This document shows, one piece after another, positions 4,471 through 27,126 of a DNA stretch of 34,117 bases. The notes under the pieces were generated by a model, which was given only the letters and a program-made list of their open reading frames with translations, had not been told where the DNA came from and ran no database searches. Numbering within the stretch: the first letter of the stretch is position 1; each line of letters begins with the position of its first letter. Location: positions 1 to 34,117 of the forward strand of contig MIAO01000020.1 of NCBI GenBank assembly GCA_001829155.1. Direction: 5' to 3'. The translations under genes were made by a program, and so were the position numbers. This stretch comes from Spirochaetes bacterium GWB1_36_13. Lineage in GTDB: Bacteria > Spirochaetota > GWB1-36-13.

Positions 4471-5304
4471 TTGAAATACAAGAACGAAGAGCTGATCAAT
4501 TTATCTGAAGAAGAAGAGCTGGTTTTATGGCAGACTTATAAAAATGAAAAAACTCCCCAGCCTAAAAGAGAAGAAATTAGAGAAAAACTGATTTTAAAAT
4601 ACGCTCCCCTTGTAAAATATGTTGCTGGTAAAGTTGCGATCGGGATGCCGAAAAAAATTGAGTTTGACGATTTGGTCGGGTATGGCATTTTTGGGCTTCT
4701 GGATGCAATTGACAAATATAAGCTGGATAGAAATACAAAATTCAAAACTTATGCGATTACAAGAATCAGAGGGTCGATTTTTGACGAACTGCGCTCTATC
4801 GACTGGGTCCCCCGTACGATCCGCCAGAAAACTAAACAACTGGAAAAAACGATTTATGATCTGGAAGAAAAATTTGACCGTACCCCAACCGATGAAGAAA
4901 TTGCCCAGGCAATGGAAATCACCACAAAAGAATTGGAAAAACTCTATCTGAATGCAAGCTATACAGTGGTCACATCTGTGAATGACTCTCTTTTTTCTGA
5001 AGAACAGGACGATGAAAAAAACAGTGTTGTCAATGTTGTGGAAGCTCCGAATTCTTATAATCCGGACACTATCTCGGAACGCCTGGAGATCAGGAATATG
5101 ATTGCGGGAATTATTGATGAACTCGCTGAAAAAGAAAAACAGGTGCTCATCCTCTATTACTATGAAGACTTAACGCTGAAAGAAATAGGAAGCGTATTGG
5201 AAGTCACTGAATCCAGAGTCTCTCAGCTTCATACCAAAGCGATTTTGAGGCTGAAAAGCAAACTGAAAAAACTCGAAAAAAAATTACGAAAGATTACTCA
5301 ATAA
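4471..5304 (+). CDS. RNA polymerase sigma factor of the FliA/WhiG (sigma-28) family
   Basis: 'LVKYVAGKVAIGMPKKIEFDDLVGYGIFGLLDAIDKYKLDRNTKFKTYAITRIRGSIFDELRSIDWVPRTIRQK' and region 4 'EKEKQVLILYYYEDLTLKEIGSVLEVTESRVSQLHTKAILRLK'. Confidence 0.95.
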   Translation: MKYKNEELINLSEEEELVLWQTYKNEKTPQPKREEIREKLILKYAPLVKYVAGKVAIGMPKKIEFDDLVGYGIFGLLDAIDKYKLDRNTKFKTYAITRIRGSIFDELRSIDWVPRTIRQKTKQLEKTIYDLEEKFDRTPTDEEIAQAMEITTKELEKLYLNASYTVVTSVNDSLFSEEQDDEKNSVVNVVEAPNSYNPDTISERLEIRNMIAGIIDELAEKEKQVLILYYYEDLTLKEIGSVLEVTESRVSQLHTKAILRLKSKLKKLEKKLRKITQ

Positions 5305-5402
5305 TCCGATAAATTATTACTCATACAATTGAATATTTTTTGTTATTTTATTCAATGAGAGAACTTCATAAAAGAATTTTTAGAGAATAAGTAGGATTAA
5401 CT

Positions 5403-7349
5403 ATGAAATTAAATCATCTTGCTGAAATGATTGAAAAGAACAATGAGAACTCAATCGAAATTGAAGCCAACTCTTTAGAAGACGCTTTAAAAAGGGGCGC
5501 CGATTCTTTAAAAACATCCATTATTAATTTAGATTATGAAATTATCGAAAAAGGGAAAAAAGGGTTTTTAGGACTGGGAAAGAAAAATTTTGTGGTCCGT
5601 ATCTGGAAAACCGGTGAAATAGATCTGGGAATTATTAATCAATCTCTTGCCAATCAAGAAGCAGAAAGAGAAGAAATTGAGCTGAATCTTCCCCGGGACG
5701 GTGAAGGAAAAGTGAAAATCAAGCGCTCTGGAGTTTTTTTAAAAGTAATACCGCCAAAAAACGGAGGCGTTCCAGCAGAATTAAAAGCTATTGAAAACCT
5801 TCTTTTTAAAAGAGGGATTCATCACTTCGACCGTCGTCAGGTCAAAGATATTTTAAAAAAAAGCGATGAAAGCTGGGTGAAAATCGGGGAATGGGTGCCC
5901 AACCCTGAATATGACAGCAAAATTACAATTTCTGTTGCGGCGGATGAAATGGAAGCCAGTATTACGATGAGCGCACCTATTTATTCCGGACGGACACTGG
6001 AACCGGAAGAGATTATCAATGCCTTGGAATCAGAAGGCGTGAAATACGGAATTCTTTATGATAAAATCAGAGAAATAGCAGATGATGAAATTGTCAATAT
6101 TCCGATTGTAGTTGCCCAAGGTATCCCTCCAAAACATGGGAGAGATTCTGAGATTGCTTATAAATTTAAGACAGGTTTTGAAACCGGTCCTCTTTTTGAT
6201 AAAGAGGAAGAAGTGGTGGATTACCGCGAATTAAACCGGGTTCAAAATGTTTTGGCAGGGCAGATTATTGCTGAAAAGATTCCTGCCGGAAGAGGAGAAT
6301 ACGGCCGCACTGTTAAAAACAAGGTGATCGAAGCCAGAGATGGAAAAGACTATCTTTTTAGAGTTGGAAAAAATGTCCGCCTTTCAGAGGACGGATTCAC
6401 CGCCTATGCCCAGAAAGACGGTCAGGTTTTTTTATCCGGGGGGGAGCTGGTTGTCCGCGAAATTTACGAAGTCCGGGGAGATCTGGATTATAATGTCGGG
6501 AACATAGATTTTGTCGGTACCGTTATAATCCACGGTGATGTGAAAGAAAATTTTCTTATCAAGGCGGCCGGAGATGTTTTTATTGTTGGAAGTTTTTACC
6601 GCTCAGAAATCATCGCTCAAGGAAAAGTGATCGCGAAAGGCGGGATAAAAGGCGGAAAAATCAAGGCCGGAAGAAGCATTTACTCAAAATACATCGATAA
6701 TGCAAATCTTGAAGCAGGACTCGATGTTATTGCCAGTGAAGAAATTATGAACTGCGATATCAAAGCCAGCGGAAGAGTGATTTGTATTACAGGAAAAGGC
6801 GGAATTATTGGGGGAAGAGTGATCGCCGCTCTCCAGATTATCGCAAAAAAACTCGGCGCTGAAAGCTATACAGGCACTTTATTGGAAGCTGGTGTTGACC
6901 CTTCTATTAAACTGAAGCTTTCTGAACTGGAGAAAGAAAAAAAGACAATGGATGAAAAATTTGATACGCTTTTGACTTCTTTGGAAAGAATAGAAACAGA
7001 AAAAAAAGAACAGGGACTTTCGCCTAAAAAAGAAAAAATTCTGAAAAAAATGATTGCCGCAAGAATGGTCTATTCCAAAAAACTGGCTTTTATTGAAGAT
7101 AAAATAAAAAAACTCTCTATTTACCTCAGTAATCTGGAAAATAAAGGCTCTATTTCATCCCGTTATATCACCTATCCCGGGGTCAAAGTGACAATAAAAA
7201 ATGCTGAAATGGAAATTAAAAATGAATATAAATCTGTCACATTTAAGTATTCGGCCGGACATATTGTTCCATCCAAATATGAATTCAATGAGCTGGATAA
7301 GGAAATCCGTCAGGAAATCAGAAAACTGAAAGACAGGGAGAAAGGGTAG
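5403..7349 (+). CDS. FapA/DUF342 family protein with N-terminal Jag_N domain
   Basis: Jag_N-like 'IEIEANSLEDALKRGADSLKTSIINLDYEIIEKGKKGFLGLGKKNFVV'; DUF342 polymer-like repeats 'YEVRGDLDYNVGNIDFVGTVIIHGDVKENFLIKAAGDVFIVG'. Confidence 0.9.
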   Translation: MKLNHLAEMIEKNNENSIEIEANSLEDALKRGADSLKTSIINLDYEIIEKGKKGFLGLGKKNFVVRIWKTGEIDLGIINQSLANQEAEREEIELNLPRDGEGKVKIKRSGVFLKVIPPKNGGVPAELKAIENLLFKRGIHHFDRRQVKDILKKSDESWVKIGEWVPNPEYDSKITISVAADEMEASITMSAPIYSGRTLEPEEIINALESEGVKYGILYDKIREIADDEIVNIPIVVAQGIPPKHGRDSEIAYKFKTGFETGPLFDKEEEVVDYRELNRVQNVLAGQIIAEKIPAGRGEYGRTVKNKVIEARDGKDYLFRVGKNVRLSEDGFTAYAQKDGQVFLSGGELVVREIYEVRGDLDYNVGNIDFVGTVIIHGDVKENFLIKAAGDVFIVGSFYRSEIIAQGKVIAKGGIKGGKIKAGRSIYSKYIDNANLEAGLDVIASEEIMNCDIKASGRVICITGKGGIIGGRVIAALQIIAKKLGAESYTGTLLEAGVDPSIKLKLSELEKEKKTMDEKFDTLLTSLERIETEKKEQGLSPKKEKILKKMIAARMVYSKKLAFIEDKIKKLSIYLSNLENKGSISSRYITYPGVKVTIKNAEMEIKNEYKSVTFKYSAGHIVPSKYEFNELDKEIRQEIRKLKDREKG

Positions 7350-15192: not shown

Positions 15193-15219
15193 GGCTTGAC
15201 CGGGGATTCAAATCCCCGG
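15193..15219. repeat. Repeat-element fragment with perfect hairpin
   Basis: GGCTTGACCGGGGA shared with 11139-11152; perfect inverted repeat CCGGGGATT (15200-15208)-CA-AATCCCCGG (15211-15219). Confidence 0.6.
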
Positions 15220-15465
15220 CTTTATTTGATTTGAAATTGAGATTATTTTTTTTATCTCATCTAATGAAAGCCCGGTTCCCTCTGTTATTTGCTCGATAGA
15301 AAGCCCAAGACGATAAAAATTTTTAGCCGTTTCGATCTTTCCTTCTATTTTCCCTTTGATTTCCCCTTCTTTGATCCCTTTTTTATAAAAACTGTTGATT
15401 AAGGATTTCTCATCTTTCCGTTTTTTTTCTTGATATTCATAAATTTCTCTCATTTTATCGTCCAT
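15208..15465 (-). pseudogene. C-terminal remnant of a Rpn/PD-(D/E)XK nuclease family transposase-like protein
   Basis: 85 aa only: 'MREIYEYQEKKRKDEKSLINSFYKKGIKEGEIKGKIEGKIETAKNFYRLGLSIEQITEGTGLSLDEIKKI', typical of Rpn C-termini; N-terminal nuclease domain absent; 3' end runs into the repeat fragment. Confidence 0.65.
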
Positions 15466-15691
15466 GGTGAATTTTTTGTATTCCTCTTTGTATTAAAGAT
15501 AGCATTTTTTGAAAAAGATTCAAAAGATTTTGAACTCGCAAAAATAGCAAAAAATCACTTATCTTTCCATTTTTTTTGTCCAGTTTCTTCACAGACTATC
15601 GTTTTTTAACTTGAAAATTGAGTTTTTCAGGGTTGAACTGTAATGTTTCACTAGGACATGATATTTATTTTCATATTCATAGCTCTCTGTA

Positions 15692-17380
15692 TCAGTAAAA
15701 TAATTTTAACTCAAACATTTTTAATAAATTTAACACAACCACTGTTTTATTGGATCCCAAAGTTATCAGCCCCGCGGCAATTTCTGTTTTATTCCGTAAC
15801 GCAGTCAATTGTTTGACCACCATTTTTCTTTCAAATAAAACTTTTGAAACAACCAATCCTATGACATTGTTTTTTATCTTAAGCACAAGTGTGATAGTAT
15901 CATTTGGATTGTCAAAGTTATGTAATTTTAATATTGTGTCCAGATAAAAAAGTTGAATATATTGTTCATTATTTTGGTAAAATAATTTTCTATCGATAAT
16001 TTTAATCTTATCTTTTTTAATATCAATGATTGATAAAATATAACTGGAAGGAATAGCAAATATCTGCTGTGCTGTTTCAAAAACTGTGATAGAATAAAGA
16101 GAGGTAATCAGGGGTAATTTTAAAATAAACTGGGTGCCATGATGAAATTCCGATGAAACAATAAGCTCACTGTTTAATGCTCTCATAATATCGGCTACAA
16201 TATCCATGCCAACCCCTCTCCCTGAGATATCAGTCACCTGTTCCGCCGTTGAAAAACCGGATTGAAAAATAAAATCAATGATTTGTTCTTTACTGAGAGA
16301 CTCTGCTTTTTCTTTTGAAACCATGTTCTGCTTAATTGCTTTCTGTTTGATTAATTCTATATCCAGCCCTTTCCCGTCATCTTTGAGTTCAATAATAATA
16401 TTATCTTGAACAACTGCCGCTTTTAACTCAATTCTGCCGCATTCTGTTTTTCCTTTTGCTTTTCTCTCTTCCGGCATTTCTATTCCATGATCAATCGCAT
16501 TTCGGATAATATGCATGAGCATTATTTTTACATCTTCAATCAACCTTTTATCAATACCGACCTCGCTTCCTGTTATAACGATCTCAGATTTTTTTCCTTT
16601 TTCTAAAGAAATATCTCTGACTAATCTAGGCAGATTATTAAATATAGAAGACAATGGGACTAGTAATAATTCAGAAATATTATCCTGCAATTGTCTGGCA
16701 GACAATTTATAAAAGTTAATTTCATGTTCATATTGGTTTAGTATTTTTTCAAATACTCTATTTTCCTCATCATTCTGTAAATAGTTGGAGAAATCTTTTA
16801 ACTGGTTTAAAAAAAAATCAAACCGTCCATAATAATTATTGAAAATATTGCAAAAGTTGAGAAGAGATTTCACTTTATCACCTTTTACATAAATAAATTC
16901 ACTCCGTCTGCTTGTTTTTTCAATTATATCAGTTTCGTCTGGTTCTTTTTCTTCCTGCTCAAATATCTGGAAAGGGGGAATCTCTTTCTTGGATTCGGGA
17001 GGATGTGAAATATCAAGGTTTTCTAAAGAAGAGATATCAATCTGAATCTCTTCATCCGGAAGTTTGTTTATTGCCTTTTCGATGTTGTCCATTATATATA
17101 ACATATTGGTAATAATTGTATTGTTAATGAGATCAGGATTTTCTTCGAATTCTTTAAAAAAGTTTTCCAGAATATGTGTCGCTTGATTGATATTTTTCAA
17201 TCCCAGCATCTTTGCGGCGCCTTTTAAAGTATGCACCTCTCTCTTAATATCATTGATAATAGAAATTTGAATTCCATTTTTTTCTAAATTTAAAAGATGA
17301 TTAATGGTTCTGTTGATTCTTTCCTGAGCCTCCAGTACAAAAACGGAAAAAATTTCCGGATCAATATTTATTCCAGACAT
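15692..17380 (-). CDS. cheA: Chemotaxis histidine kinase CheA
   Basis: Hpt 'REVHTLKGAAKMLGL'; kinase boxes 'HIIRNAIDHGIEMPEER', 'DDGKGLDIELIK', 'SGRGVGMDIV'; C-terminal CheW-like domain; no obvious P2 domain. Confidence 0.93.
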   Translation of the reverse strand: MSGINIDPEIFSVFVLEAQERINRTINHLLNLEKNGIQISIINDIKREVHTLKGAAKMLGLKNINQATHILENFFKEFEENPDLINNTIITNMLYIMDNIEKAINKLPDEEIQIDISSLENLDISHPPESKKEIPPFQIFEQEEKEPDETDIIEKTSRRSEFIYVKGDKVKSLLNFCNIFNNYYGRFDFFLNQLKDFSNYLQNDEENRVFEKILNQYEHEINFYKLSARQLQDNISELLLVPLSSIFNNLPRLVRDISLEKGKKSEIVITGSEVGIDKRLIEDVKIMLMHIIRNAIDHGIEMPEERKAKGKTECGRIELKAAVVQDNIIIELKDDGKGLDIELIKQKAIKQNMVSKEKAESLSKEQIIDFIFQSGFSTAEQVTDISGRGVGMDIVADIMRALNSELIVSSEFHHGTQFILKLPLITSLYSITVFETAQQIFAIPSSYILSIIDIKKDKIKIIDRKLFYQNNEQYIQLFYLDTILKLHNFDNPNDTITLVLKIKNNVIGLVVSKVLFERKMVVKQLTALRNKTEIAAGLITLGSNKTVVVLNLLKMFELKLFY

Positions 17381-17842
17381 TTAAATATCTCCTATTGTGT
17401 GCGCATCTTCATCATAAGATAAAGTTTTATTTATTTTTAATAACTGACGGGATGATTCATAAAAAGACAATAAAAGGATTTTTCTCTCATTGCTTTCAAT
17501 TATTCCATAAAATAAAGGGATTTTTAGTTTTTTAAAGATAAATTCCGGCATAGGAAAAACATCTCTCAAATTTACTTTGAAAAGTTCTATAGTCTCCGGA
17601 ACATGGATACCAATTTTTTCATCACTGTTAAACAATTGAATTACAATAATTTTACAAGAAGACAAGGTTGTTTTTAATTTAAGGATTTCTTCCATTTTTA
17701 AAATTTCTTTAATATGAAATTGATTATAAAATTCATAAACTTTTTGTTGTCTGCTGTCAAATATCTTATCTATTTCATTTTCCAATATTCCGAACCATCT
17801 GTTGTCAATCTCAAAAATAAGTATTTCAATTTCCCTTGACAT
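17381..17842 (-). CDS. Divergent CheW-like protein
   Basis: CheW-like pattern 'ILIFEIDNRWFGILENEIDKIF...IGIHVPETIEL'; adjacent to cheA and cheW. Confidence 0.55.
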   Translation of the reverse strand: MSREIEILIFEIDNRWFGILENEIDKIFDSRQQKVYEFYNQFHIKEILKMEEILKLKTTLSSCKIIVIQLFNSDEKIGIHVPETIELFKVNLRDVFPMPEFIFKKLKIPLFYGIIESNERKILLLSFYESSRQLLKINKTLSYDEDAHTIGDI

Positions 17843-17857
17843 AAAGCCTTCTCTTTT

Positions 17858-18370
17858 TTATTTGAGAAAAATGGATGAAAACAGTCTGGGCATATCGATA
17901 ATTCTGACAATATTGTTGTTATAATCAAATTCTTCAAGTAAAAAAATATTACTGCTATTCTCACCCAGCGCCTTACTTCTTATCTTCTTTTCATCTAATG
18001 AAATTATTTCATAAATTTCTCTTGCTGCAATCGCGGTTTTAAATGCAACTTCAATTACAACTGCATATTGAAAAAAAACATCTTCTTGAGTAAAACCCAG
18101 CATTTTCAGCGTAGAAAGCACCGGAATCATTTCTCCGCGGATATTTAAAACACCAAGAATATAATCATCGAGCAAGGGTATGGTAATTAATTCATTGGTA
18201 TTTTTTATTTCTACTATTTCCAGAATGGCTTCCAGCGGAACCGCAAAATAATCTTTGCCATCGAGAAATACAAAATAGTTTTTTTTACAAATGATTTCTT
18301 CCTTGTTTTTCTGGCTGATATTTTGCATTAATTCTTGAATAGGGTGTTCCATATTTATTCTCCAATACAT
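17858..18370 (-). CDS. cheW: Chemotaxis coupling protein CheW
   Basis: 'YFVFLDGKDYFAVPLEAILEIVEIKNTNELITIPLLDDYILGVLNIRGEMIPVLSTLKMLG'. Confidence 0.88.
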   Translation of the reverse strand: MYWRINMEHPIQELMQNISQKNKEEIICKKNYFVFLDGKDYFAVPLEAILEIVEIKNTNELITIPLLDDYILGVLNIRGEMIPVLSTLKMLGFTQEDVFFQYAVVIEVAFKTAIAAREIYEIISLDEKKIRSKALGENSSNIFLLEEFDYNNNIVRIIDMPRLFSSIFLK

Positions 18371-19560
18371 TATTTCTTTTCAATTCCGATTAAAGTAACA
18401 TCATCATCAATATTATTATTAGAAAAACAATTCACATCCTCCAGTATTACTCTTATAATTTGTTTTAATGGAATAGAATTATTCATCTTCAATAACTTAA
18501 GTAATCTATCCGAGCCATAAAACTCTTTTTGATGCTTTGCCCGCGCTTCCAGAAGCCCGTCTGTAAAAAGAAAAAAACGGTCTCCTGAAGCAACTGGAAT
18601 CTCAGTAATTTGAAAACCTGCCTCATCCTGTTCGGAAATGCCTAATAATTTGACTGCACTATTGTTTAAAAGGTTGATGCCGGCATCTTTTGAAACAAAT
18701 ATTATTGGATTTTGAAAAGAATTGGTAAAAGCAAGGGTATTTTTTTCTTCATCAATAATCAGATAGGAAACAGTCGCATACATTCCCTGCGGAAAATATC
18801 TTTGCAGCGTTTTATTCAGCAGATACATTGCTTTATCAGTCGGTAAATCATTTTTCATGATGTCATTAACAAGAAATTTCAGCCCGAAAAGCAATAGCGC
18901 TCCGGGGATTCCGTGCCCTGAAATATCCGCCAGGATCACTGCTGTCCGTTTTTGCGACAGGGTTTTGGTCGTAAAAAAATCGCCGCCTATTATATTGGAT
19001 TGTCGGTTATAAATTTCAATATTAAAATTCTGGCATTGGTCTTCCCGGATGTTAATTTCTTTGGTCATGTATTTTGCCAGAGACAGCTCAGACTGCATTT
19101 TTTCATCCCGGAGTTTCAACTCATTTAATAATCGAATATTATCTTTTCTCAATTGATCTTTCTCAAAAGTCTGACCAATGATAAAAATTACTTCTTTTTT
19201 TATGCTGTCAAGCTCATCTTTGACAATATAATTGTCAGCCATTCTCATCAGATCCACTACAGTTTTCCGTTCTGCCTGAGCACTTAAAACAATGACAAGA
19301 ATATCAGTGTAATTTTTCTTTATTGTTTCAACCAATTCCTTGCCGTTCATTTTCGGCATATCAAAATCTGAACAGACCATATCGTATTTTTTCTGGTCGA
19401 TTTTTTTTATTGCTTCCAGACCATCCTCAGCAGTATCTACATTTTGGTAACCAGCCTGATTTAATATTTTTAGCAGCAGTATCCGGATGAGATTTGAATC
19501 ATCAACGAGCAGTATTTTTTTTTCATAAAACATACTTTTTATCCTTTTCATAAAACTCAT
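18370..19560 (-). CDS. Response regulator with PP2C/SpoIIE (RsbU-like) phosphatase output
   Basis: REC 'KILLVDDSNLIRILLLKIL...DMVCSDFDMPKMNGKEL'; PP2C motifs 'IIGGDFF','ILADISGHGIPGALL','FLFTDGLLEA','DDDVTLIGIEKK'; start may be internal ATG at 19533. Confidence 0.93.
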   Translation of the reverse strand: MSFMKRIKSMFYEKKILLVDDSNLIRILLLKILNQAGYQNVDTAEDGLEAIKKIDQKKYDMVCSDFDMPKMNGKELVETIKKNYTDILVIVLSAQAERKTVVDLMRMADNYIVKDELDSIKKEVIFIIGQTFEKDQLRKDNIRLLNELKLRDEKMQSELSLAKYMTKEINIREDQCQNFNIEIYNRQSNIIGGDFFTTKTLSQKRTAVILADISGHGIPGALLLFGLKFLVNDIMKNDLPTDKAMYLLNKTLQRYFPQGMYATVSYLIIDEEKNTLAFTNSFQNPIIFVSKDAGINLLNNSAVKLLGISEQDEAGFQITEIPVASGDRFFLFTDGLLEARAKHQKEFYGSDRLLKLLKMNNSIPLKQIIRVILEDVNCFSNNNIDDDVTLIGIEKK

Positions 19561-20965
19561 TTATTTCTTTATAAATCAAGAGCTTATTTTCTTCAATTAA
19601 AGGAAAAATCATTTCGTTGATATTCTTCGATTTCTGAAAAGCAAGCCGCATAAAATCATCGTGTTTCTGATAGTCTTTCTGATAAAAATTTAATTTTGCA
19701 AGATAAAAATAGGCAAACAGCGACTGGCTGTCATTAAGCAATGCGGTCTGGAGTTCATAAGAAGCAAAATCCGGCATTTCCACTTCCAAATAAATTATTC
19801 CCAGTAACAAATGGGCGCAAAATGAATTCGCGTTTAAAGAAATTGCGATTTGAGAATTTTTCATTGCTTCAAAATATTTTTTTTGTTTCAAATAACATTC
19901 CGCAAGATAGATATAGGCATGCCAATCTCTGGGATTGCAGCCGATATAGTTTAAGAGTTTTATCTCAACTGCAGAATAATGTTCCAAACAGTATTCTTTA
20001 ATAAGATTTTCTATGAATTGGTTATCAAGTCTTTCGTAAATAATTTCCTGTTTAGTATAATTGTCTGAAGCTGGATTATGTTCCAGTCCCGGGTTTTGCT
20101 CATTCATTTCTGCCTGGAATCGTTCGCTTTGTAAAAATTTTTTTTTCTGATAGAAAAAAGTATTCTCGTTCCATACAACTTCAAACAGATGAGGAAACAT
20201 CTGAAGAGTTTCCGAGTAACCCAGAAAAAGAACTCCATTTTCGCTTAAAACAGAATGAAAATTTGAGATTAATTTTTGAATAGTTTGAATATCAAAGTAA
20301 ATAATAACATTTTCACAGAAAATAATATCAACATCATGATATTCTTTTAAAAGAAAAGGTTCAGCATTTAAATTTCCCTGCCGATAGGAAATCAGTTTTT
20401 TTATATTTTCATTTATTAAGTAAGATTTATTGTTTATTTTCTTAAAATATTTTTGAATATAGTAAAAATCCAGATTTCTTAGTTTATACTCGCTGTACTC
20501 TCCCTTGAGCGCTGTTTCGATCGGTTTAATATTAATATCAATTGCAATGATTTGAATGTTCCATTTTTCAATATCATTGAGCAGATCAACTAACAGCATA
20601 GCTATGGTAGAAGGTTCTTCACCGGTGGAACAGCCCGCTGAAACGAGAATGATTTTCCTGTCTCCCTGTTGTTCTTTTTTTTTGATTAAATCAGGTAGAA
20701 GTTTATATTTCAGTGTATTGTAATGTTCTTTGTTTCTGTAAAAGCAGGTTTCATGAATTGTGAAAAAAGATGAAATCAGATCAATTTCTTCAGCGCTGTT
20801 TTCTAAAAATTGAATATATTCCTTTATTTCAAGCTTTTTTGTTAATAATCTTAGATTAACAATAGTATTGAGATGATCAAATTTTTCTTCATGTACCGAA
20901 ATACCGGCTTTGTTTGTAATTATTTCAGCAATTTTTCCTATATTTTGAAGGTTCGCTGTTTCCAC
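19523..20965 (-). CDS. cheR: CheR methyltransferase with C-terminal TPR repeats
   Basis: 'ETCFYRNKEHYNTLKYKLLPDLI', 'LVSAGCSTGEEPSTIAMLL', 'DIIFCENVIIYFDIQTIQKLI..FHSVLSENGVLFLGYSETL'; TPR-like 'DWHAYIYLAECYLKQKKYFEAMKNSQIAISLNANSFCAHLLLGIIYLE'. Confidence 0.93.
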   Translation of the reverse strand: METANLQNIGKIAEIITNKAGISVHEEKFDHLNTIVNLRLLTKKLEIKEYIQFLENSAEEIDLISSFFTIHETCFYRNKEHYNTLKYKLLPDLIKKKEQQGDRKIILVSAGCSTGEEPSTIAMLLVDLLNDIEKWNIQIIAIDINIKPIETALKGEYSEYKLRNLDFYYIQKYFKKINNKSYLINENIKKLISYRQGNLNAEPFLLKEYHDVDIIFCENVIIYFDIQTIQKLISNFHSVLSENGVLFLGYSETLQMFPHLFEVVWNENTFFYQKKKFLQSERFQAEMNEQNPGLEHNPASDNYTKQEIIYERLDNQFIENLIKEYCLEHYSAVEIKLLNYIGCNPRDWHAYIYLAECYLKQKKYFEAMKNSQIAISLNANSFCAHLLLGIIYLEVEMPDFASYELQTALLNDSQSLFAYFYLAKLNFYQKDYQKHDDFMRLAFQKSKNINEMIFPLIEENKLLIYKEINEFYEKDKKYVL

Positions 20966-20972
20966 TATTTAA

Positions 20973-22106
20973 TCACTCCACGGGTTCTTTTAAACTTAAT
21001 TTTACTAAATATTCAGAAATATCTTTTAAATTGATGATTTTATCAACATTTCCGCTTTCAATAGCCGCTTTCGGCATCCCGTATAATATGGAGCTTGTTT
21101 CATCCTGAGCAATAGTAAATCCGTTATGTTTTTTGATATGATAAAATCCTTCTGTTCCATCCTGTCCCATGCCTGTTAGAATCAAAGCAATAACACGCTC
21201 CTGATAAATCTGCGCCAGAGAGGTAAACAGTATATCCGCAGAAGGCCGTAAGCCGACAATAGGCGGTGAATCATTATAGTCAAACCTGCCGTTTTTATCA
21301 AAAATCAAATGATAACCTGAATGAGCAATATAAATATTGCCGGGTTCAGGCAGGGAGCCTTTTTTTGCAAAACAGATGGGCACTTTAGAATAACCGGCGA
21401 GCCAGTCCCTGAAACTTTCGAAAAAACCTTCGCTGAGATGCTGAAGAATAATGATAGGCAATGCAAATCCGGCAGGCAGAGACTGTATAATGTATTTTAA
21501 TGTCTGCGGACCGCCGGTAGAAGAGGCAATCGCAATAATTGGATAATGTTTCAATTTAAATATTTCGGAGATTTTTTGAACAATATTTTTTTTGGAAACC
21601 TGATGACCAGCAGAATGTTTTTTTGTGTAATCTGAAAAGTCAAGATTAGTTGATTTTTGCCGTTTAATGACTCTAAAATCTTTGAATAATCTTACTTTCT
21701 GCAATAAGGAATTTTCAATAATTTTTTCAAATTCACTGTAATTATTAACTAGCGGTTTTTCTATAATATCTACTGCCCCCAGTTCAATTGCTTGAAATGA
21801 AAGGTCTGCGATTTTTTTTCCTGCTCCTGAAAAAATAATAATAGGATTCGTTTTTTCCTCCAATATTTTCGCAATTGCTTCCAGTCCATTCAGGTGAGGC
21901 ATTTCCACATCTGTAATCATAACATCAAAATCGATTTTTCGGGCTAACTGAATTGCTTCCAGTCCGTTGTAAGCGTTTCCGACAACTTCAATATCCGGGG
22001 AAGTTTTTTTGATAACTCTTTCTATCAGGGTGTGAACTATTGCTGAATCATCAACCAATAAAACTTTTATCACTTTAAGCCTCCTTGTCTTTTTTCCGGA
22101 TTTCAA
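20973..22106 (-). CDS. cheB: Chemotaxis methylesterase CheB (REC + CheB domain)
   Basis: 'VLLVDDSAIVHTLIERVI'; 'IAIASSTGGPQTLKYII', 'IILQHLSEGF', 'ALILTGMGQDGTEGF'; likely true start GTG at 22073 preceded by aaggagg. Confidence 0.94.
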   Translation of the reverse strand: MKSGKKTRRLKVIKVLLVDDSAIVHTLIERVIKKTSPDIEVVGNAYNGLEAIQLARKIDFDVMITDVEMPHLNGLEAIAKILEEKTNPIIIFSGAGKKIADLSFQAIELGAVDIIEKPLVNNYSEFEKIIENSLLQKVRLFKDFRVIKRQKSTNLDFSDYTKKHSAGHQVSKKNIVQKISEIFKLKHYPIIAIASSTGGPQTLKYIIQSLPAGFALPIIILQHLSEGFFESFRDWLAGYSKVPICFAKKGSLPEPGNIYIAHSGYHLIFDKNGRFDYNDSPPIVGLRPSADILFTSLAQIYQERVIALILTGMGQDGTEGFYHIKKHNGFTIAQDETSSILYGMPKAAIESGNVDKIINLKDISEYLVKLSLKEPVE

Positions 22107-22120
22107 ATTTGAAAATATTT

Positions 22121-23896
22121 TTATTTAAATTTTTCAACAGTTTGTTCCAGCATATCAGACAGTGATACCAGTTCCCGGATAGCAATCATGCTCTGCCGCG
22201 CGATCTCCGAAGACTGCCGGGCACTGCCTGACATCTGTTTCATTGTTTCCGCTGTCTGCTTTGAGCCGTTTTCCTGCTGTTTGGTAGAGACATCGATCTT
22301 TTGAATAAATCCATTGTTATTGTTAATTTGCTGCCCCACTTCCTCTATGCTGTGAAATATTTTTTTCATGAGCTCCACACATTTTTGAATGGCAAGCACT
22401 TCTTCTTTTGCACCCTGCATAATTTTTTCAATAAAATTTTGAATATCATTCGCGGCAATATTTACTTTTTTAGACGAAATGATTGTTTCTTTTGAGAGTT
22501 CCCTGATTTCAGAAGATACCACACTGAAACCGCGTCCGTATTCTCCGGCTCTGGCAGCCTCTATTGAAGCATTTAAAGATAGTAAATTGGTTTTATTGGC
22601 AACTTCAGTGATAATGCTAACCATTTCATTAATAATTTTGGAACGGGTGCTTAATTCATTTATTTTAGCTGAATTTTCCTTGCTTACATTTTCCATTTCA
22701 GAAAGCGTGGAGACAGTTTCTTCCAGTTGTTTCTGGTCTGTATTTAATATTTTCATGATTTCCTGGCTGGAAATGAGAAGTTCACCTGTATTCCGCGCAA
22801 TTTGTTTTGCTGTTATGGACAATTCTTCCACTGTAGCGCTGATTTCAGTAATACCACTGGCTTGTTCGGTAGCGGCGCTTGTCTGTTCTTCGGATGAGGC
22901 TTCAAATTCTTTTGTGGCGGAGGTAAGCTGAGAGATTCCGTTTTTAACATTTTCGATTACATTTCTTAAATTATTGATCATTTTTTTAAAAGCGAGACCG
23001 ATATCTCCCGGAAGCTCTTTATCAAGTATTTCAGCATTTAATTCTCCCTCTGACATTGCTTTTGCCTGTTCAATTAAAATCATAAGCATATTGTTCATTT
23101 GATTAAATGAATTTGCCAGCTCTGCGATTTCATCATGGCTCCTAACTTGTAAATTGAACTGTTTGATATCTCCGGTTGAAATCATATTAGCAATAGAGAC
23201 TACCTGTTTAAGGGGTTTTGTAATCAGGGAAGAAATAAATTGAATAATAAAGACCAGAATAACAACAGTTGCAATTATAATAATCAATGTAATCCATTTG
23301 AGTGAATTAAAACTATTGATTGAACTATTATAATCTTTTTGAATCGCGGCAGATTCGAGGTTCTCTAATTCTTTTAAACTGGCAGATAAAGCAGTAAAAT
23401 AATCTTCTGTTGTATTGATATAGACAGAAGCGGTGGTAATATCATTATTTTCGATATCGGCGATATCAAAAATCATCTTGGTCCCTTCTTTATAGCTATT
23501 TAATGCGGCGAGTATTTTTTCAAATATTGTTTTTTCATTGTTTAAAAGTTCATTATCAAGTATATCCTTGGTAAACTGAATGAGCTGGTCGATAGTTTCT
23601 ATTTGATCCGATATTTCTTTTGTAATTTTTTTAATTTCAATTCCCGTATCAATAAAATTGAGTATTTTATAAAGTTTATTGTGAATTGTTTGAAATTGAA
23701 TAGAAATAACCGCACTATCTTGGATTTTTTTTATTCTTTTATGATAAATATCACTGATAATATTTTTTTGTTCAAATAACCCATAGAAAGACATCCCTCC
23801 TAAAACAAGACTGGAAAAAACAGCCAATCCTAAGATAACCATCAGTTTATATTTAATCCTAAAATTGAAAGAAAATGGTTTTATACTTTTCATCAA
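22121..23896 (-). CDS. Methyl-accepting chemotaxis protein (4HB-like periplasmic domain, HAMP, MCP signal)
   Basis: Two TMs, HAMP, 'TEVANKTNLLSLNASIEAARAGEYGRGFSVVSSEIRELSKETIISSKKV'. Confidence 0.93.
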   Translation of the reverse strand: MMKSIKPFSFNFRIKYKLMVILGLAVFSSLVLGGMSFYGLFEQKNIISDIYHKRIKKIQDSAVISIQFQTIHNKLYKILNFIDTGIEIKKITKEISDQIETIDQLIQFTKDILDNELLNNEKTIFEKILAALNSYKEGTKMIFDIADIENNDITTASVYINTTEDYFTALSASLKELENLESAAIQKDYNSSINSFNSLKWITLIIIIATVVILVFIIQFISSLITKPLKQVVSIANMISTGDIKQFNLQVRSHDEIAELANSFNQMNNMLMILIEQAKAMSEGELNAEILDKELPGDIGLAFKKMINNLRNVIENVKNGISQLTSATKEFEASSEEQTSAATEQASGITEISATVEELSITAKQIARNTGELLISSQEIMKILNTDQKQLEETVSTLSEMENVSKENSAKINELSTRSKIINEMVSIITEVANKTNLLSLNASIEAARAGEYGRGFSVVSSEIRELSKETIISSKKVNIAANDIQNFIEKIMQGAKEEVLAIQKCVELMKKIFHSIEEVGQQINNNNGFIQKIDVSTKQQENGSKQTAETMKQMSGSARQSSEIARQSMIAIRELVSLSDMLEQTVEKFK

Positions 23897-24075
23897 TATT
23901 CCTCTCTAAAAATTTTTTACGCTGTCTCAGTCTAACATAAACAAAAAAATAACAGATCGGAGTTTCTTCTAAATCGATTGATTGACCGCACCGCATCAAC
24001 AGAGCGGTCAATAGTATGTTTCCTGGCTATGCTATCTTTTTAAAATCCAGAACAGTGCCTGATTTATTTTCAGTT

Positions 24076-24540
24076 TTAATACCCTCCGCATACAAGCAAA
24101 TTGGTTCCGGGAATTTTTTCTATATAAGTGTTTTTATTAATCATTTTTTTTGTTATCTTATGCGGCCACACATAACTTACCCAGCCTTTGCCCGAAGTAT
24201 TTGCCGTTTTAATAAAATCTTTTACGAAATATTTCCCATTGCTATCTTTAAAGTCAATTACATTTTTGTTATTTAATTTTGGCACTCCGCCATTGACAAT
24301 AGTCAATCCATCATCCCGTAAAACAAATAAGTAAAATTCCCCTTGGAGAAAAGCTCCTTTTTTGTTGGCAAATTCTTCTTTTGCTTTTTCAATACCATTG
24401 GTTTTAATGAATTCAACTCCCCGTTGCACCAATTTTACAACAATAGACTTTTTTTCTTTTTCTGATAATTCTTCCGCGAAGCTGATACTGCAGCAAAGTA
24501 ATAAGAGCATCGCAAGAAATTGAGATTTTGTCTTTTTCAT
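24076..24540 (-). CDS. Secreted single-Cache-domain protein
   Basis: Signal peptide 'MKKTKSQFLAMLLLLCCSISFAEE'; sCache-like 'GIEKAKEEFANKKGAFLQGEFYLFVLRDDGLTIVNGGVPKLNNKNVIDFKDSNGKYFVKDFIKTANTSGKGWVSYVWPHKITKKMINKNTYIEKIPGTNLLVCGGY'; no second TM or cytoplasmic domain. Confidence 0.8.
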   Translation of the reverse strand: MKKTKSQFLAMLLLLCCSISFAEELSEKEKKSIVVKLVQRGVEFIKTNGIEKAKEEFANKKGAFLQGEFYLFVLRDDGLTIVNGGVPKLNNKNVIDFKDSNGKYFVKDFIKTANTSGKGWVSYVWPHKITKKMINKNTYIEKIPGTNLLVCGGY

Positions 24541-24769: not shown

Positions 24770-26428
24770 TTATTTTTGAATATTTTTCGGCAGCCTGATT
24801 TCAAAACAGATGCCTGTTTCATCCGGAGTGTCTTTGCAAAAGACATGTCCTTGATGAAAGCGGATGCTTTCGCGGACAATGGAAAGCCCCAGTCCGCTTC
24901 CTGAAACACTACCTGTTCTGCTTTTGCTGACCCTGAAAAAACGCCTGAAAACATCTTCCCTGTATTCCCTCGCAATTCCTGGACCGTTGTCACAGATTGT
25001 AATCACTGCTTTTTCTTTTTCTTCAAAGACCCTGATTTCAGTTTTGCCTTTTTCTTTATCATTGTATTTGATTGAATTTTCAATCAGATTATAAATTGAA
25101 TAATAAAGGATTTCTTCAACAGCTTTTAAATGAATCGTGTTTCCTTTAGTAAATCTAAGATGAATATTTTTCTTTTCCGCAGCTGGCTGGAGCGCTTCCA
25201 CAACTTTATCAACAATCTGTGTCAGTTCGGTTTCTTTCTTGTCTCCAAAAACTGAAGCATATTCAATTTTTTCGAGCCGGATCAAGTCGTTGATGATTTC
25301 AGAGAGGCGGGAAAGGGCGTTTTTGGTTTTTTCCACATAGTATTTATTTTTATCGTCAATCTGATCTTCCAATATTTCCAAATAACCTAAAATAATAGCC
25401 ATCGGGGTTTTAAACTCATGGACAATATCTGAAATAAACTGTTCTTTCAGGCGGTTTAATTTTTCGCTTTCAGTAATATCGCTTAAAACCAGAATCACTT
25501 TTCCGCTGATATAAAATGCCTGGAAATTGTAAATCGCTTCCCGGTCAACCCGGACAACCGGTATTTTCAGGCTCACTTCTTTTTCAGTTTCGTAGCATTC
25601 TTTGACCGATTCTACAATTTTGGAATGAAAAAAAGTCTCATAATAAAGTTTTTTGACTTTTACAGGATTATTTAAAAGGACTTCCAGTTTAGGGTTGTAA
25701 ATTTCTACTTTTCCTCTTTCATCCAGGAGTGCCACGCCTACGGGAAGATTTAAAATAACGGTTTCAATGGTTTCTTCTCGTTTTTGTAAAAGAGAGTAGT
25801 TTTCTTCAATCATTCTAGCCATTGTATTGAGATTTTTGACAACCGGTTCGATTTCACCTTTTCCGAAGTAGTGAATCCGGGCTGAGTAGTCTCCTGTCCC
25901 GAATTTCTGTGTAAATTGAATCAGTTCTTTGAGAGGCTGGAAAACTTTTCCGGCAAATAAAAAGAAAATTGTAAGAATCAAGAGGCTCCCAAAAAGAGTC
26001 CATTTGTAAAATTCAGGAAGGATCAATTCAAAATAACGGCTCTTTTTTTCTATTCCAAGCCTTAAAATCATTTTTTCATTTTTCCCAGCCAAGTAAATGT
26101 ATTCTTTGCCATTGTCCATCCGGATCGAGTAGCCGTTTTTCACTTCTTCCGCATAAAAAATAAAGAAAGGTTCCTTGACAAAGGAATCATAATAAGTGTG
26201 CCCGTTTGGGAGGGCAAGGGTAACGCGTATGTCTTCCGATTCTAAAGCGGGGATCATTTTATCCGAGAAATCAGATAAGTTTGAAACCAGCACTTTTTTA
26301 AGCATATCTTTCCGGTTTTCAATCGAAACACGGTAAAGGTCGTTTTTCATAAAGATAAGCATGCCGACCATGAAAACCAGAAAGACAAATAAAAGAAGAA
26401 GAATCAGTTTTAAGCGTATTTTAATCAT
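24770..26428 (-). CDS. phoR: PhoR-type sensor histidine kinase
   Basis: Two TMs, HAMP, PAS-like, 'FISDIVHEFKTPMAIILGYLEIL', 'NLIENSIKYN', 'DNGPGIAREYREDVFRRFFRVSKSRTGSVSGSGLGLSIV'; adjacent to phoU. Confidence 0.88.
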   Translation of the reverse strand: MIKIRLKLILLLLFVFLVFMVGMLIFMKNDLYRVSIENRKDMLKKVLVSNLSDFSDKMIPALESEDIRVTLALPNGHTYYDSFVKEPFFIFYAEEVKNGYSIRMDNGKEYIYLAGKNEKMILRLGIEKKSRYFELILPEFYKWTLFGSLLILTIFFLFAGKVFQPLKELIQFTQKFGTGDYSARIHYFGKGEIEPVVKNLNTMARMIEENYSLLQKREETIETVILNLPVGVALLDERGKVEIYNPKLEVLLNNPVKVKKLYYETFFHSKIVESVKECYETEKEVSLKIPVVRVDREAIYNFQAFYISGKVILVLSDITESEKLNRLKEQFISDIVHEFKTPMAIILGYLEILEDQIDDKNKYYVEKTKNALSRLSEIINDLIRLEKIEYASVFGDKKETELTQIVDKVVEALQPAAEKKNIHLRFTKGNTIHLKAVEEILYYSIYNLIENSIKYNDKEKGKTEIRVFEEKEKAVITICDNGPGIAREYREDVFRRFFRVSKSRTGSVSGSGLGLSIVRESIRFHQGHVFCKDTPDETGICFEIRLPKNIQK

Positions 26429-27126
26429 CAGGACAACGGCTGGTGTTTAATGTTTTTTCCCTCAATCATATAAATTGTATCCTGACAGATGTTGGTGCAG
26501 TGGTCGCCGACTCTTTCCAGATTTTTGGAAATGCTGATCAGACTGATAAAAAATTCAGCCTTGTCCGGCTTGTCTGAAATTTCGGCAATGCATTTCATAA
26601 TCATTGATTTGTTATATGAGTCGACAAGGTTGTCCATTTTAATCACATCCCGTGCCAGATGAGTGTCTTTTTCAATAATGCACTGAAGGGTTTTATCGAT
26701 CATTTCATTGGCTTTGGCCGCCATATATTTCAGTTCCTGATAATTTCCAAGCTGGCTAAAAAGTCCGTAATAATCGTTTTGAATAAAATCAATGACTCTT
26801 TCGCTGATATTCACAGCCATATCCCCGATTCTCTCAAAGTCGTTGTTCATTTTTAAAACCATCACGACAAAGCGGAGATCCACTGCAATCGGCTGCTGTA
26901 AAGCGAATATTTTCAAGGATTCTTCATCGAGTTTATTTTCCATCATATCGATCATAGTGTCTTTTTCAACAACGCTTTTTGCCAGATTCTCATCTTTTTC
27001 AAACAATGCCCTTGTGGAATAAACAATGGCTTCATTGACCATATTTGCCATTTGAAGAAGGTTTCTTCTAAGTTCTTCGATGACTTCATCTAAATGAATT
27101 TTCATTACTGCCTCTCTTATTTTCAT
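26428..27126 (-). CDS. phoU: Phosphate signalling complex protein PhoU
   Basis: 'ALQQPIAVDLRFVVMVLKMNNDFERIGDMAVNISE' and 'SKNLERVGDHCTNICQDTIYMIEGK'; likely start is the internal ATG of 'MKIHLDEVIEELRRNLLQMANMV'. Confidence 0.95.
   Translation of the reverse strand: MKIREAVMKIHLDEVIEELRRNLLQMANMVNEAIVYSTRALFEKDENLAKSVVEKDTMIDMMENKLDEESLKIFALQQPIAVDLRFVVMVLKMNNDFERIGDMAVNISERVIDFIQNDYYGLFSQLGNYQELKYMAAKANEMIDKTLQCIIEKDTHLARDVIKMDNLVDSYNKSMIMKCIAEISDKPDKAEFFISLISISKNLERVGDHCTNICQDTIYMIEGKNIKHQPLS

Follow-up and report, generated by a model that had tools for sequence, protein, structure and literature searches.

The window, that is the whole stretch of DNA analysed here (contig C20 with its 34,117 bases, from a 3.04-Mb genome assembled in 151 contigs), carries a chemosensory gene cluster without a stand-alone CheY whose apparent output is a protein that joins a receiver domain to a serine phosphatase domain (REC-PP2C). 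Judged from gene content and gene neighborhoods, the MCP, CheW, CheW-like, CheA, CheR and CheB proteins of this cluster probably form a self-contained array to which the REC-PP2C protein is dedicated as the output, with a STAS protein as its most likely target.

Seven minus-strand genes (15692-23896) constitute the core of the cluster, in the order MCP, CheB, CheR, REC-PP2C, CheW, divergent CheW and CheA (Table 1). They are separated by intergenic gaps of only -38 to +15 bp, and the CheR and REC-PP2C genes overlap by 38 bp. A first-pass annotation of this DNA had described eight minus-strand genes, counting a gene for a secreted sCache protein; all eight open reading frames are present at the positions and on the strand listed in Table 1, and their proposed domains were borne out by Pfam. 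MCP, CheW, CheR and CheB are thus encoded in one cluster with CheA, as expected for a Che system. The stand-alone CheY that serves as the in-cluster output of canonical chemotaxis is missing from the cluster of the window, as had been claimed, when its open reading frames and domains were inspected, and it is likewise missing from the clusters of four relatives. The further claim that the window is devoid of STAS and RsbW-like genes also held, as neither gave a match on contig C20; a linked STAS/RsbW pair, a common but not obligatory companion of REC-PP2C proteins, is consequently ruled out.

Table 1. Features of the chemosensory cluster in the window, and the corresponding receptors of Brevinematales (locus:positions).
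Feature	Position	Strand	Evidence
CheA, 562 aa	15692..17380	-	Pfam Hpt + HATPase_c + CheW; Brevinematales orthologs 38-39%
Divergent CheW, 153 aa	17381..17842	-	Pfam E=9e-4, below curated cut-off; predicted fold
CheW, 170 aa	17858..18370	-	Pfam E=4e-18; orthologs 30-32%
REC-PP2C (SpoIIE/RsbU type), 396 aa, apparent output	18370..19560	-	Pfam REC 6e-22 + SpoIIE 9e-39
CheR, ~200-aa C-terminal extension	19523..20965	-	Pfam CheR 8e-49; one marginal TPR match
CheB (REC + methylesterase)	20973..22106	-	Pfam 3e-55
Transmembrane MCP: 4HB sensor, HAMP, signalling domain	22121..23896	-	Pfam 4HB-HAMP-MCP, 1e-28
Perfect 9-bp inverted repeat ATTGACCGC...GCGGTCAAT	23981..24012	.	sCache-MCP gap
Secreted single-Cache protein	24076..24540	-	Pfam sCache_2/dCache_2
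HydS-MCP cluster receptors (Brevinematales)	L120:13080-15302, L121:4339-6600, L233:4919-7192		

The CheA protein has its P1 (Hpt) histidine, His50, in the motif HTLKG, and the N and G boxes and a GRGVG motif are present in addition to the P4 HATPase and the CheW-like P5 domain; Pfam gave no match for P2 and did not recognise P3. The assignment of the divergent CheW protein is substantiated by its predicted structure, which matches those of CheW and of the P5 domain of CheA (Foldseek probability 1.00, E=2.8e-7), and by orthologs (19-26% identity) that occupy the same position in the clusters of the relatives. In the REC-PP2C protein, the phospho-acceptor Asp and the metal-binding and catalytic motifs of the phosphatase had been regarded as intact, and these residues are not only present but invariant across the five orthologous proteins, both in the receiver (D20, D21, D65, S93 and K114) and in the PP2C domain (D194, D212, D334, D386 and D387). 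The protein hence combines the DD, D, S/T and K signature of a response regulator with the set of metal-binding Asp residues of SpoIIE-type phosphatases. Its structural model (pLDDT 79) consists of the REC domain, a long helix (residues 117-167) and the PP2C domain, and is closest to RssB from P. aeruginosa (TM 0.58-0.65), followed by SpoIIE, Rv1364c and SiaA.

Conservation of the phosphatase gene next to this cheA was the test on which the first-pass annotation had staked its interpretation. When separate profiles for CheA and REC-PP2C were each searched over 393 Spirochaetota genomes, both identified the same five genomes, with a single copy of each protein (the genome of the window, G000, and G014, G025, G044 and G103), and nothing further above threshold; the two genes are accordingly linked one-to-one, and the central idea of that annotation withstood the test. 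The REC-PP2C proteins form one clear ortholog set with 42% identity, the next matches having ~25-32%, and the nearest named orthologs stem from metagenome-assembled genomes of the Brevinematales, an order of the Spirochaetota. Where the neighborhoods of the weaker matches in other spirochaetes were viewed, they lay outside che clusters. The order cheR, REC-PP2C, cheW, divergent cheW and cheA is kept in all five genomes, which represent three families, and MCP and cheB genes precede cheR in each of the four genomes whose contigs extend that far (the contig of G014 stops at CheR). As this order is maintained at only ~40% identity, CheA and REC-PP2C can be viewed as a conserved unit. Their linkage is strong, albeit drawn from few independent lineages, since the five genomes come from three families and three of them share one genus. 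A search of viral contigs with CheB gave no match.

The receptor of the cluster is not of the same kind in all of these bacteria. In the Brevinematales genomes G025, G044 and G103, it is a soluble fusion in which two 4Fe-4S motifs, an [FeFe]-hydrogenase domain and a C-terminal FeS motif are followed by an MCP signalling domain. All three retain the Cys residues of the H-cluster, lack an equivalent of the proton-transfer residue C299 and possess an exact Cx2Cx4Cx16C motif, the signature of the putative sensory HydS enzymes (PMC8163306). The MCP of the window has a 4HB-HAMP module in place of HydS, and no HydS-MCP is encoded in its genome. HydS-like matches were detected in 94 of the 393 Spirochaetota genomes, mostly in open reading frames of ~700 amino acids (e.g., L280:8935-11148), and at the 19 other spirochaete loci that we read, the HydS-type gene had no CheA/CheW cluster within eight open reading frames. 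The Brevinematales receptors are chimeras: in the sensor half, they share 51-59% identity with these orphan HydS fusions and have no detectable similarity to the MCP of the window, and in the signalling half they are 51-54% identical to that very MCP, with no other MCP in the comparison exceeding 31%. The signalling halves of the cluster receptors and of the MCP of the window group in one clade with a tree support of 100/99. The signalling half consequently tracks the CheA/REC-PP2C module and the sensor is exchangeable; on these sequence comparisons, the input of the CheA/REC-PP2C clusters is exchangeable and the output is fixed. HydDB lists MCP-linked [FeFe]-hydrogenases as group C2, "chemotactic (putative)", with an undetermined role (PMC5037454). 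The Brevinematales receptors resemble this group in being HydS modules fused to an MCP (PMC5037454; PMC8163306), but unlike the other spirochaetal HydS-MCPs that we read, which are orphans, they belong as receptors to a cluster that has REC-PP2C as its output.

These data also bear on the proposed input. The sCache protein had been considered a part of the system and the signal to be extracytoplasmic. Neither suggestion gained support: the sCache gene lies 179 bp upstream of the MCP gene and was not found in the orthologous clusters of the relatives, which places it outside the conserved core, and a soluble hydrogenase fusion as the receptor of the relatives does not speak for an intrinsically extracytoplasmic signal. 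Within the gap between the sCache and MCP genes, the 9-bp inverted repeat was matched in none of 100 shuffles and possibly serves as an operator. No copy of it was present in any other locus that we fetched. The window has further features outside the cluster. A PhoR/PnpS-like histidine kinase gene adjoins phoU (24770-27126), with no response regulator gene seen next to the kinase gene. Just downstream of cheA, a short Lys/Glu-rich open reading frame on the minus strand (15200-15470), with a strong terminator-like hairpin near its end (15200-15219), may be what is left of the C-terminal part of a transposase-like gene of the Rpn/PD-(D/E)XK kind. Genes for a WhiG/FliA-family sigma factor and, following it, FapA (4471-7349) are situated ~8-11 kb from the che cluster.

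A search of the genome for STAS proteins and anti-sigma kinases, as had been suggested, yielded 14 STAS matches and four clear RsbW-like kinases, all of them unlinked to the cluster, along with 36 SpoIIE-type PP2C matches; the latter number leaves room for doubt about the specificity of the REC-PP2C protein as an output. A target for partner switching is therefore available, but elsewhere in the genome. None of the STAS genes of this genome is specific to cluster-bearing genomes. Three types with a phosphorylatable Ser are candidate targets, with no preference among them: the one on contig C136, adjoining an NAD kinase gene, has relatives in all five cluster-bearing genomes, that on C61 in three of the four relatives (76-78% identical), and the C145 type in at least two of the four. 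The genome also harbors further chemosensory clusters. One of them, on contig C116, consists of cheA, a gene for a CheW-CheR fusion (cheWR), cheX and cheY, an arrangement that we take to resemble the treponeme motility operon. As this cluster has its own CheA, the CheA of the window is not required as the motility kinase, although crosstalk is possible. A che cluster on C145 (L100:7447-14156) has two STAS genes ahead of CheY-CheA, one of them coding for Ala at the position usually taken by the phosphorylated Ser, and a weakly RsbW-like protein is encoded after CheB; its gene order recalls that of stage-1 F7 clusters. Contig C124 contains a second pairing of chemosensory proteins with a phosphatase, CheA-CheW-PP2C(TPR), in which the PP2C protein has no receiver and which has no MCP, CheR or CheB genes nearby (L105:6913-10638). 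This pairing is kept in the order-mate G001 (L310:5805-9427; PP2C 56% identical). In Brevinematales, there are also PP2C-RsbW fusion proteins (L246:5008-7807, L247:7991-10303 and L249:6641-8191), the one at L246 being encoded directly after a STAS gene.

It is unlikely that the CheA of the window signals mainly to a distally encoded CheY, and hence to the flagellar motor, with the REC-PP2C protein as a side branch or phosphate sink. Such a route would be in keeping with the several CheY-like proteins of the genome (encoded on C98, C145, C136 and C116) and with the missing P2, a domain that often confers specificity; yet the motility-type cluster is equipped with both a CheA and a CheY, the CheA of the window and REC-PP2C are strictly co-conserved, and a pure sink would not need an intact PP2C active site. 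That the phosphatase acts on a phosphoprotein other than a STAS protein, for instance one phosphorylated by a eukaryotic-type Ser/Thr kinase, is decidedly unlikely. The PP2C fold does not dictate the substrate and the cluster lacks a linked STAS gene, but the characterised REC-PP2C proteins act on STAS proteins (PMC10950880, PMC5085249), and outside the spirochaetes, on a Chimaeribacter plasmid and in Vibrio sp. THAF190c, REC-PP2C genes adjoin STAS and RsbW-like genes.

We consider it highly improbable that the REC-PP2C protein operates in the manner of RssB, not as a phosphatase but as an adaptor, controlled by phosphorylation, through which proteins are degraded or sequestered. RssB provides the closest solved structures and is also the best NCBIfam match, well below its cut-off. 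The PP2C domain of E. coli RssB is truncated and inactive (PMC12143880), however, and all PP2C metal-binding and catalytic motifs are invariant in the proteins studied here. The two roles are not mutually exclusive, since RssB from P. aeruginosa is active and an adaptor as well. The latter protein (3eq2/3f7a) has the same REC-linker-PP2C architecture at 20-21% identity; unlike the REC-PP2C protein of the window, it is a sigma-S adaptor that resides outside chemosensory clusters.

REC-PP2C enzymes are already known, and so are chemosensory clusters that include genes for a phosphatase and for STAS proteins. Both RsfR (PMC10950880) and HsbR (PMC5085249, PMC6482189) are REC-PP2C proteins acting on a STAS protein, and the pathway envisioned for the window would resemble the RsfS-RsfR system of M. 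smegmatis and the HptB-HsbR-HsbA system of P. aeruginosa in that a histidine kinase or Hpt protein passes a phosphoryl group to a REC-PP2C protein, which then dephosphorylates a STAS anti-sigma antagonist (PMC10950880; PMC5085249; PMC6482189). In those systems, the phosphoryl group comes from an ordinary histidine kinase or an Hpt protein, whereas in the window it would come from a CheA embedded in an MCP/CheW/CheR/CheB set. HsbR is, furthermore, also a kinase, while the REC-PP2C protein of the window has no RsbW domain. The stage-1 F7 clusters of gamma-proteobacteria likewise contain two cheW-like genes and combine chemosensory genes with those for anti-sigma antagonists and a serine phosphatase (PMC7184735), but they keep CheY, CheD and linked STAS genes, all of which are missing from the cluster of the window, where the receiver is carried by the phosphatase. 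Relative to stage-1 F7, the arrangement is new in that it lacks CheY and has its receiver on the phosphatase. We found no description of a CheA with a REC-PP2C protein as its output in the open-access literature that we searched.

The array with a dedicated REC-PP2C output lends itself to the following model. The receptor would set the autophosphorylation of CheA at His50, from where the phosphoryl group would be passed to Asp65 of the REC-PP2C protein and, for adaptation, to CheB. Phosphorylation of the receiver should alter the helical linker (residues 117-167) and thereby switch the PP2C domain. Linkers have been proposed to switch the PP2C dimers of RsbU and RssB, with receiver domains among the exchangeable sensors (PMC12143880), and we infer by analogy that the linker of the window's protein could work in this way. 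The PP2C domain would then dephosphorylate a protein phosphorylated on Ser or Thr. The likeliest such substrate is an anti-sigma antagonist of the stand-alone STAS type whose gene lies elsewhere in the genome, and its dephosphorylation would feed a partner switch acting on a sigma factor or another effector. Both the phosphotransfer from CheA to REC and the STAS target are plausible from the sequences. The sign of the control by phosphorylation is not predictable here, because RsfS-RsfR and HptB-HsbR have opposite signs.

A broader view, which we put forward tentatively and hold at somewhat less than even odds, is that of a CheY-less array in which the output, from CheA to REC-PP2C, is fixed and the input is a plug-in part, a membrane receptor in some spirochaetes and a sensory [FeFe]-hydrogenase in others. 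Through such an array, with its methylation-based adaptation, H2 or redox state would be converted into Ser/Thr dephosphorylation and partner-switched gene expression. If this is correct, a single enzyme would connect adapting receptor arrays to partner switching, and the array would be a unit that accepts different inputs and retains one output. The Brevinematales version would then offer a concrete route for testing the role of MCP-linked sensory hydrogenases.
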